Shown: positions 58,961-61,645 of the stretch, piece after piece
Layout of the letters: each line of letters starts with the position of its first letter
Numbering within the stretch: the first letter of the stretch is position 1
DNA from: a virus
Strand: one strand, 5' to 3'
IMG/VR virus record: IMGVR_UViG_3300031841_003468
Span: 89,712-153,711 of that record
Length of the DNA stretch: 64,000 bases
Notes under the pieces: generated by a model
Told to the model about the DNA's origin: nothing
The model's input: only the letters and a program-made list of their open reading frames with translations
The model's database searches: none
Position numbers and translations under genes: made by a program

Positions 58961-59911
58961 ATGGCTGAAATCGTATTTTCAACAAAAGACGATGACAATA
59001 TTGCTGGTTCCGGCTTAGGCTTTTATGGAACTACTTTTGGTTCATCTGTCCAAATTGGTGAATACCAAGACACAACTTTCATTGTGAACGATGACGGTAG
59101 CCAGAATAAGGCTGCTGCAGCAAATATTAAATTCTTGAACTTTGAATCTGGCAATGTAGAATCTGGTAACCAAGACGGTTACTTAGGTCGTATCAACTCT
59201 AGTGAAGCTACACTAAAGATTGACTTCCTACATGGTACTCCAGTCAACGTTCAGAACGTTCAATTAAGAATTTATGACAGAGTTAGTATCAATAATCCAG
59301 CTTCTGGTGTTCTAACTAAAGTAGCAGAACTTGTTAACTTTGACAATGACGGTCAGGGTTCAAATGCTTCTACTGGTTGGACTACTTGGAGCGGTGCTCC
59401 CGGCGACGAAGTTGCTGGCGTATCTGGTTCAGGTGACCTTTTCTGGTGGGGTGCTCCTTGGCCTGCAGCTCAGTGTAATCTAAGCTGGCACGGTGGAAGT
59501 AGCAACTATGCTTACAAAAACTCATCTGGTGTTAAGTTTTACAACTTCACTGATGCTGAAGTAGGTAATGGTGACGCTCGCCTAACTGGTCTTACTGGTG
59601 CTCAGGAAACTGTTGGTGGTACTGGTATTATCGTACCTCTACTAAACAGTCCGGGTTCTGGTGGTAAGAACCTTCACATGCAGTACGCACTGTCTGCTGG
59701 TGGCGAACTAAAGCCTAAGTACATGCAGTACTACAAGCACACTGATACTCCGGGTGGATCTCCAAACATTGGTGCAAACCAAATTGAGAACACTTACGGT
59801 GGTACTGGTGTTGATACTCGTCACACTTGGCACGTTGCACTAAGTGCATCACCAATTAGTATCGGTTCTAAGACTGATTACGGTCTATATGTATCACTAG
59901 AATACCTATAA
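58961..59911 (+). CDS. Abundant structural protein, unrecognised
   Basis: 316 residues, beta-rich, no family recognised. Seen: a strong AGGAG with good spacing, own promoter-like element, a terminator 44 bases after the stop, and codon bias (CTA, GGT, GTT, ACT) as strong as in the major capsid gene. All this marks a highly expressed virion protein placed at the end of the late region. Sequence features include ATLKIDFLHGTPVNVQNVQLR near residues 75-95 and three tryptophans close together near 155-165. Possible roles: head fibre, tail-tip coat or host-binding protein. Confidence 0.6.
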   Translation: MAEIVFSTKDDDNIAGSGLGFYGTTFGSSVQIGEYQDTTFIVNDDGSQNKAAAANIKFLNFESGNVESGNQDGYLGRINSSEATLKIDFLHGTPVNVQNVQLRIYDRVSINNPASGVLTKVAELVNFDNDGQGSNASTGWTTWSGAPGDEVAGVSGSGDLFWWGAPWPAAQCNLSWHGGSSNYAYKNSSGVKFYNFTDAEVGNGDARLTGLTGAQETVGGTGIIVPLLNSPGSGGKNLHMQYALSAGGELKPKYMQYYKHTDTPGGSPNIGANQIENTYGGTGVDTRHTWHVALSASPISIGSKTDYGLYVSLEYL

Positions 59912-59928: not shown

Positions 59929-59957
59929 TTGACTGTTTTACTATAAAAAGATATAAG
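59929..59957 (+). promoter_or_regulatory. Sigma70-type promoter for the DUF1501 gene
   Basis: TTGACT (59929-59934), a 17-base spacer, TATAAG (59952-59957): five of six matches to consensus in each box with ideal spacing. Predicted start near 59964 lies inside the left arm of the adjacent terminator hairpin, so transcripts from here would lack most of that arm and escape it. This is unlike the late-promoter-like elements. Confidence 0.6.
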
Positions 59958-59994
59958 GGGTTTGTGGGTTTTAATACCTATGAGCCCCTTTTTT
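59955..59994 (+). terminator. Terminator after the 316-residue gene
   Basis: 14-bp stem (arms 59955-59968 and 59977-59990, four G.U wobbles, no mismatches), 8-base loop, then six T (59989-59994). It ends the late transcript before the DUF1501 gene. Confidence 0.8.
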
Positions 59995-60012
59995 ATTACA
60001 TGGAGACAAGGG

Positions 60013-61263
60013 ATGATTAACTTAAATATTGATAGAAGAAACTTTATGCAGATTGGTGGTATATCAGCTTCTCTTTCTGCTATTGGATTGTCGGACTTGC
60101 ATGCACAAGATACTTGTCTAACCCCTGACGATAAGTCAGTAATCTGGGTTTGGTTAGGTGGTGGAGCAACACAGGTAGAAACTTTTGACCCTAAACCAAA
60201 TGCTACCTCTGATGTGCGTGCTGTTAACGGATGGACTAAAACCTCTGGAGACTATTTGATTGGTGCTGACTGGGCTAATTTAGCTACTGTCGGCGATAAA
60301 ATGACTGTTGTTAGATCTTTCTCTCATGGCAACTCTAGCCACCGAACTGCAACACACTGGGTAATGACAGGTCATAATAGTACTGATAACACACCTCAGT
60401 CGCCTGCTCAGGAACCCTCTTATGGTTCTATTATATCTAATATGTATGGCTCAAACCACCCGTTTAGTGGAATGCCCTCTTATGTTAGAGTTAATAACAT
60501 TACTTTTGATGAAGCAGCTTGGTTAGGCTCCGTATATAAGCCGTATGAAGCCACAGGAGAAGGCGTAAAGAACTTACAGTTAAAGATCAAGGAAGATATG
60601 TTCAATCGTAGAGCAGACCTCCTGAAGGGACTGGACACCCTTAAAAGGGGAATAGACACGGGTGCTGATGACTGGGCTGACTTGAGAAAGCAGTCATATA
60701 ACATGATACTTGGTAATATAGCTAAGGCATTTGACATTAAGAATGAAAAGCCGGAGACTATTGAGAAATATGGAACTGGTGTTGGTGAACAGCTCTTACT
60801 TGCTAGAAGACTAGCCGAAGCGGGTACAAAGTTTGTTACTATTCATTACGGCGGTTGGGATATGCACAGTAATATATCTACTGCCCTTAAGAGTCGTGTG
60901 CCTCCTATTGACAAGGGATTGACAGCACTTATTAATGACTTGCACGACCGAGGAAAAAACAAGGACATTTTGGTTGTTGTGACGGGTGAATTCGGCAGGA
61001 CTTATAAAATTAATGCCAATTCTGGACGTGACCACTGGCCTAAGCTATCACCACTAATGATGGCGGGTGGAAATTTTGATATGGGATATGCTCTGGGAGA
61101 ATCAACCTCAAAGGCTGAGGAACCTAAGACAGATCCATTTGGGCCAAACAATGTTACAGCCACGTTGTTTAAGCATTTTGGAATAGACCAACACACTCAA
61201 AGAGTTGATATGAACGGTCGCCCAAGGTATTTCGTAGAGGTAGGCACACGGTCTATTATATAA
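60013..61263 (+). CDS. DUF1501 protein, Tat-exported
   Basis: 416 residues from ATG 60013 (GGAG 7 bases upstream); an open frame extends to a TTG at 59962 but that lies in the terminator. N-terminus DRRNFMQIGG, a hydrophobic stretch and LHAQD form a twin-arginine signal peptide. The body carries DUF1501 signatures: VWLGGGATQVETFDPKPNA, RSFSHGNSSHRTATHWVMTG, GGWDMHSNI and GEFGRTYKINANSGRDHWPK. DUF1501 belongs to the alkaline phosphatase/sulfatase superfamily fold; the reaction is unknown. The family is abundant in Planctomycetota and not a normal phage component. It has its own promoter and terminator. Role in the phage is unknown; envelope modification is one idea. Confidence 0.88.
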   Translation: MINLNIDRRNFMQIGGISASLSAIGLSDLHAQDTCLTPDDKSVIWVWLGGGATQVETFDPKPNATSDVRAVNGWTKTSGDYLIGADWANLATVGDKMTVVRSFSHGNSSHRTATHWVMTGHNSTDNTPQSPAQEPSYGSIISNMYGSNHPFSGMPSYVRVNNITFDEAAWLGSVYKPYEATGEGVKNLQLKIKEDMFNRRADLLKGLDTLKRGIDTGADDWADLRKQSYNMILGNIAKAFDIKNEKPETIEKYGTGVGEQLLLARRLAEAGTKFVTIHYGGWDMHSNISTALKSRVPPIDKGLTALINDLHDRGKNKDILVVVTGEFGRTYKINANSGRDHWPKLSPLMMAGGNFDMGYALGESTSKAEEPKTDPFGPNNVTATLFKHFGIDQHTQRVDMNGRPRYFVEVGTRSII

Positions 61264-61265
61264 CT

Positions 61266-61303
61266 CCATAAAAAAACCCCCGACTTTCGTCAGGGGCTTT
61301 CTT
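61266..61303 (-). terminator. Terminator between convergent genes
   Basis: Stem arms 61277-61284 and 61289-61296 with a 4-base loop; on the minus strand the stem CCCCTGAC / GTCGGGG contains a T.G wobble, closes with a GAAA tetraloop and is followed by a run of T, so it best serves the minus-strand cluster. On the plus strand it has one mismatch, but may also end the DUF1501 transcript. Confidence 0.75.
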
Positions 61304-61309
61304 TAAGGC

Positions 61310-61645
61310 TTACTCTACGGACTTGGTTTTATTGTTCCACTTTGTCCAGCCACGATCAGGTAGCCATTCTCCACTCGCAGATTTGCGTTTGGGGAATAGG
61401 CCGCCACCCTTACGGTTAAGACCGTATGCTAGCTTAGCTCCACAATCCAAGCACTTGAGTTCATAGTACTGATTTCCATCATTCTCACGAACAATAAATC
61501 TCAGTTCAGTGCTGTCACACTTCCCGCAAGAACCTTCGTCGAATACTTCTTGGAAGGTAGCGAGCTGTGCAAACAATTCTCTAGGAGAATCTGCTTCAAA
61601 CTCACATGAGAGGTTGCCACTACGGTTACGGTAAGTAACTTTCAT
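61310..61645 (-). CDS. Small zinc-ribbon protein
   Basis: 111 residues. CGKC (about 40-43) and CLDC (about 65-68) form a zinc ribbon; the end (GRGWTKW-like, GEWLPDRGWTKWNN) is basic and aromatic. Its start overlaps the stop of the Rad52-like gene (TAATG on the minus strand) with GGAG inside that gene, so the two are coupled. Small zinc-ribbon proteins next to annealing proteins occur in other phages and may bind single-stranded DNA (inference). It is the last gene of the minus-strand cluster. Confidence 0.6.
   Translation of the reverse strand: MKVTYRNRSGNLSCEFEADSPRELFAQLATFQEVFDEGSCGKCDSTELRFIVRENDGNQYYELKCLDCGAKLAYGLNRKGGGLFPKRKSASGEWLPDRGWTKWNNKTKSVE

Follow-up and report, generated by a model that had tools for sequence, protein, structure and literature searches.

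The protein family DUF1501 has expanded hugely in planctomycetes and verrucomicrobia and is little understood; we know of no reaction assigned to any of its members. Genomic clusters of DUF1501 genes are the subject of Kamneva 2012, as cited in PMC4452313. The stress response of Rhodopirellula has been linked to the PSC2-PSD1 protein RB10051 and to an ECF sigma factor suggested as its regulator (PMC2754498). Our search for literature on DUF1501 in phages returned nothing beyond a weak CDD match in a 61-aa ORF of a Pseudomonas phage (PMC5418858), and a DUF1501 annotation already exists for one viral protein in the databases, A0A6J5M742 from an uncultured Caudovirales phage. Here we describe a DUF1501 gene of a large uncultivated phage, in a window of 64,000 nucleotides (bases 89712-153711 of an IMG/VR virus record of 153,711 bp), its relatives in a lineage of viral contigs and its probable origin in Planctomycetota and Verrucomicrobiota.

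A DUF1501 gene in a slot between two operon ends

The locus comprises the following features, in window coordinates:

58961..59911 (+), P0002, the 316-aa upstream neighbour and left border of the slot, defined by 8 syntenic relatives
59929..59957 (+), candidate sigma70-type promoter TTGACT-17-TATAAG, 10/12 consensus match in the sequence
59955..59990 (+), intrinsic terminator of the structural-gene operon, -23 kcal/mol, z -6.3
60002-60005 (+), Shine-Dalgarno sequence GGAG, 7 nt 5' of the ATG
60013..61263 (+), DUF1501 gene of subfamily D1 (P0001), 416 aa, with a PF07394 match and an AlphaFold2 model
60013..60105 (+), predicted twin-arginine signal peptide MINLNIDRRNFMQIGGISASLSAIGLSDLHA, predicted cleavage after LHA, from the invariant RR and a Tat rule
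61269..61303 (-), intrinsic terminator of the convergent minus-strand operon from its hairpin z, plus-strand use possible
61310..61645 (-), 111-aa downstream neighbour and right border of the slot, with a 43-68% identical homologue in 8/8 relatives

The initial annotation had assigned the gene to DUF1501, and a profile search bore this out: PF07394 matched the 416-aa protein with E=1.3e-72 and 245.6 bits (cut-off 27), aligning residues 41-407 to profile positions 2-379 of 390. The mechanical ORF finder called a longer ORF from TTG 59962; all relatives in alignment A1 start at the equivalent of 60013, and the gene was read from the ATG there to a stop codon ending at 61263.

The gene had also been described as a moron-like unit positioned after the terminator of the late region, and comparison with relatives supported its insertion between conserved genes. 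The hairpin at 59955-59990 lies 3' of the structural genes, and homologues of P0002 were found on 8 viral contigs (the 1230-aa upstream protein returned no relatives as a query). DUF1501 was missing from the slot in all 8 of these syntenic relatives, and the minus-strand genes of 61310, 61645 and 62418 sat beyond it in every one. The flanking genes were directly adjacent in 6/8, separated by a gap of 118-201 bp with hairpin terminators (118-143 bp in L206, L209-L211 and L213), and 6 of the 8 carried DUF1501 elsewhere on the contig. The remaining 2/8, L207 and L208, had a different gene in the same slot, which identifies the space between the terminators as a cargo hotspot. The occupant (L207:6979-7869 and L208:6981-7829, both on the minus strand) is about 290 aa long and, judged by eye, resembles an FkbM-type methyltransferase. 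The absence of DUF1501 from the slot in 8 relatives indicates that the window copy was inserted or relocated into this cargo slot, which is bounded by the ends of two operons.

The regulatory signals proposed for the gene fared less uniformly. A plus-strand hairpin terminator was also present 3' of the P0002 homologue in relatives lacking DUF1501 there, and the hairpin at 61269-61303 had a counterpart at the empty sites; both hairpins therefore belong to the neighbouring operons. With z -5.8 on the minus strand, where it is strong, and a weaker z -2.6 on the plus strand, the latter mainly ends the convergent minus-strand operon. A terminator does follow the gene as had been claimed, but it is not the gene's own, and of the moron layout the inserted gene stands whereas the dedicated terminator does not. 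The candidate promoter (TTGACT at 59929-59934, a 17-base spacer, TATAAG at 59952-59957) is the sole 10/12 site within the intergenic gaps of the structural block, and TATAAG breaks the search rule, which wants a final T. The -10 box shares bases with the 5' arm of the upstream terminator. As the initial annotation proposed, a transcript from this promoter would therefore escape that hairpin, since a start about 7 nt past the promoter would leave the RNA without the full stem. The promoter site is thus present as annotated; its status as the gene's own promoter is weak, a 10/12 site being expected by chance at about 0.03 in a gap of such composition.

Distribution, origin and likely host of the phage genes

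Relatives of P0001 were encoded by at least 114 IMG/VR viral contigs, 80 of which were retained for analysis. Across 81 loci, 151 full-length DUF1501 proteins sorted into four subfamilies, namely D1 (81 proteins, including that of the window), D2 (31), D3 (17) and D4 (22), and the genes were frequently arranged in tandem with one to four per phage contig. Selection on them was strongly purifying, with a median dN/dS of 0.03-0.05 per subfamily, values that are only rough because dS was high and near saturation. The start of 68/81 D1 genes lay within 30 nt of the upstream gene, so that D1 is usually operonic and not an autonomous moron. Neighbours of D1 in the relatives were genes for PolIII alpha, primase, DnaB, a PD-(D/E)XK nuclease, dNMP kinase or ribonucleotide reductase (RNR), several of these identities resting on inspection by eye. 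The window phage is a member of this lineage with the same replication and RNR genes, and it has no DUF1501 gene at the two sites where relatives carry one. Its DNA polymerase III alpha is of bacterial type and split across two genes (G000:C1:12015-16696, minus strand). When contigs of at least 20 kb were selected by an independent lineage marker, DUF1501 was present in 7/25, and one 148-kb contig was without it, indicating that DUF1501 is accessory and not core. The family had initially been called no normal phage part; its occurrence on at least 114 viral contigs makes it a frequent accessory gene of this lineage, and the wide distribution rules out a one-off moron.

The best cellular matches to D1 were from Planctomycetota and Verrucomicrobiota at 41-47% identity, two binned phage contigs having been set aside. 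In the tree, phage D1 formed one clade (SH-aLRT 100) beside a Planctomycetota/Verrucomicrobiota clade, phage D3 was nested within Verrucomicrobiota, and the phage D4 clade included a gene from a Pirellulales MAG that was 75% identical over its full length. D2 had relatives of 58-61% identity in Verrucomicrobiota. A single viral clade for all phage copies was rejected by an AU test on a 46-row data set (p-AU 6e-52), and there were therefore several captures; the same result rules out one capture followed by duplication within phages. As judged from these trees and identities, the phage genes are several captures from Planctomycetota and Verrucomicrobiota, and the planctomycete-type origin proposed initially was upheld by the placement of D1 beside the PVC clade and of D4 with the Pirellulales gene. 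That gene (L203:916-2184, minus strand) lies on a chromosomal contig, where it adjoins a PSCyt2-PSD1 gene and an ECF-sigma-like gene. Its position inside the phage D4 clade suggests that transfer may also have run from phage to host. Each of 14 tested Planctomycetota and Verrucomicrobiota genomes contained at least 47 DUF1501 genes, counted up to a ceiling of 68.

A further gene of the window phage bears on the host:

G000:C1:65870-66784 (-), also L183:8870-9784, SASA-type esterase with dockerin repeats, PF07595 above cut-off

PF07595 is the Planctomycete extracellular motif, and the esterase, besides marking the host, is a second exported enzyme of this phage. Together with the PVC ancestry of DUF1501, the motif makes a planctomycete host likely for the window phage, probably a marine member of the Pirellulales or their kin. 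PF07595 was absent from the 19 other phage records tested, the window phage being the sole carrier among 20, and the host claim is accordingly strongest for the window phage only. Two phage contigs of the group (L090 and L141) were binned in the SAR202 MAG OSU_TB57, and L141 was identical to viral contig L022 over the stretch compared. Other DUF1501 genes in the class of this MAG are far more distant, so the binning is probably an error; alternatively, hosts may vary within the group. A SAR202 host was not adopted, given that L090 and L141 are phage contigs, that the other DUF1501 genes of the class are distant and that the window phage carries a planctomycete export motif. The DUF1501 counts of OSU_TB57 are inflated by these phage contigs. 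Gene content thereby yields a host assignment for a phage group whose P0001 relatives were absent, at E 1e-5, from 50,697 deposited phage records (0 matches).

Export signal, predicted fold and neighbouring genes

Near its N-terminus the window protein carries RRNFM, which precedes a long run of uncharged residues. Tat calls were made with a TATFIND-like rule, which asks for an N-terminal RR and an uncharged, moderately hydrophobic stretch. The rule was passed by 79/81 D1, 17/17 D3, 18/22 D4 and 17/31 D2 proteins and by just 17/1304 other ORFs, 8 of these 17 being DUF1501 fragments. In the window phage, the DUF1501 ORF was the sole one to pass among 168. The RR pair was invariant across 27/27 D1 proteins in alignment A1, and residues 10-33 had low confidence in both AlphaFold2 models (built from 27 and 122 sequences). 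The Tat signal claimed initially is consistent with both the rule and the alignment, and we infer that the window protein would be exported by the Tat system of the host.

The AlphaFold2 model from 122 sequences reached a pLDDT of 86.8 and superseded an earlier, poor model from 27 sequences (pLDDT 59). Its best Foldseek matches among solved structures were sulfatases, followed by LtaS and YejM, with a best E of 2.7e-7 and a probability of 1.00, yet TM-scores of just 0.3-0.44; a sequence search of the solved structures found no relative. The fold is thus predicted to be sulfatase/alkaline-phosphatase-like. A bona fide sulfatase was excluded by two absences: the nucleophile motif C/S-x-P-S/A-R is missing, the region reading x-H110 with an almost invariant His, and PF00884 matched neither the DUF1501 protein nor anything in 20 phage records. 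Residues invariant across phage and cellular DUF1501 were R266, W282, D283, H285, D300, D309, R329, R339 and H341, with H110 and E326 almost so. By analogy, D283, H285, H341, R329 and R339 (plus E326) would fit the metal site expected from alkaline phosphatase. The low TM-scores and the missing nucleophile motif mean that catalysis is not assured.

Proteins with a hydrophobic N-terminus, suggestive of export or membrane location, were commoner near DUF1501 genes (96/378 vs 119/918), an enrichment that was weaker when counted by cluster (24/85 vs 41/215). Among the neighbours were proteases of trypsin-like and matrixin type as well as small membrane proteins rich in Cys, with a PAP2 gene nearby. 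The window phage itself encodes a matrixin (M10) metalloprotease (G000:C1:69807-70550, plus strand; L183:12807-13550) that begins MLRREFIGVAAATIISRPS, an export-like N-terminus, and a matrixin homologue lies directly 3' of DUF1501 in L004-L006. Tiny membrane-anchored proteins whose tails are rich in Cys are encoded beside DUF1501 (L051:4832-5026, L049:11496-11690 and L048:11731-11919, among others) and possibly handle metal or heme. PSCyt2 genes were found in 0 of 20 phage records tested and in just 7/49 tested same-strand neighbours of cellular DUF1501 genes. Lacking both PSCyt2 and PF00884 sulfatases in these 20 records, the phages keep DUF1501 alone.

Proposed role and comparison with known systems

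We lean towards the view that the phage DUF1501 product is a hydrolase, exported by Tat, with which the phage supplements or redirects the host's DUF1501 system in the metabolic phase of infection. The gene would be a host-derived accessory gene carried by a phage of Planctomycetota, and transcription of the window copy would start at its own promoter or reach it by read-through. Its product, a putative metal-dependent hydrolase of the alkaline-phosphatase/sulfatase superfamily, would fold in the cytoplasm, leave via the host Tat system and act in the periplasm or at the surface. There it would most likely augment or redirect the host's own DUF1501 enzymes, which may adjoin PSCyt2-PSD1 proteins and ECF sigma factors, and its target may be an ester-bearing envelope or polysaccharide compound, attacked during phage replication to the presumed benefit of the phage. 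The presence of one to four DUF1501 genes per phage, from separate captures, makes it probable that these genes remodel or exploit the envelope of the infected cell, a role not described in the literature we searched. Envelope change, phage exclusion and nutrient access, the roles put forward initially, are candidate functions of the exported protein.

The export signal would also serve if the enzyme modified the envelope to bring about superinfection exclusion or receptor change, so that competitors fail to adsorb or progeny come off the cell more readily. In relatives, DUF1501 adjoins genes for exported proteases, PAP2 and small membrane proteins, as such a role might lead one to expect, and several subfamilies per phage would suit a varied surface chemistry. 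We consider it unlikely, though the main rival, because the location of DUF1501 in replication and nucleotide-metabolism operons of the relatives suggests a role in the metabolic phase. Much the same location, among replication or RNR genes in most relatives, argues against a virion component, as do the conserved Tat signal and the absence of the gene from the corresponding site in 8 relatives, 6 of which have DUF1501 elsewhere. A tail- or capsid-associated depolymerase-like enzyme is suggested by the placement of the window copy after the structural block and by the precedent that sulfatase-like or esterase proteins of phage tails would offer; we judge it very improbable. From the position of the copy near the end of its contig (window 60013 of 64000), one might suspect an artefact of assembly or binning, or a piece of bacterial DNA at a contig end. 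Phage genes on both flanks, syntenic in 8 other contigs, and closest relatives that are viral, at 74% and 71% identity, leave that explanation with hardly any credibility.

Beyond the exported hydrolase that we favour, it is possible, and we suggest this tentatively, that large planctomycete phages carry an exported-enzyme cassette that takes over the expanded DUF1501 envelope system of the host. Such a cassette would perhaps combine up to four separately captured PVC DUF1501 families with exported proteases, PAP2 and Cys-rich membrane proteins. If true, this would be a new class among phage auxiliary systems, one that is exported, and would open a route to finding the function of DUF1501. Phages retain few unneeded genes, and the repeated capture and strong selection seen in this lineage indicate that the family is important at the envelope of infected cells. 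The phage DUF1501 sets are also small natural gene collections in which the function of the family could be tested.

Compared with known systems, phage D1 is closest to the DUF1501 proteins of Planctomycetota and Verrucomicrobiota, with 41-47% identity over the full length, the same Tat motif and the same invariant residues, but it forms a separate clade, has a shorter N-terminus and comes from phages with PSCyt2 in 0/20 records. The sulfatase/alkaline phosphatase superfamily (PF00884, LtaS, YejM) provides the best fold matches; unlike PF00884 sulfatases, the phage proteins are without C/S-x-P-S/A-R and have the near-invariant H110 in that region. The DUF1501-annotated phage protein A0A6J5M742 was the best match in a viral fold library and is 13% identical to the window protein. 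Like the morons of tailed phages, the window gene is one extra gene between conserved genes, missing there in relatives, with GC3 slightly above that of 12 large structural genes. Unlike morons, it is flanked by terminators that are its neighbours', has only a candidate promoter of its own and is operonic elsewhere in the lineage. The phage genes resemble auxiliary metabolic genes in being host-derived, as judged from trees and identities, under purifying selection and patchy (7/25 marker-selected contigs), and differ from them in having no known reaction, in their predicted export and in comprising four subfamilies from separate captures.
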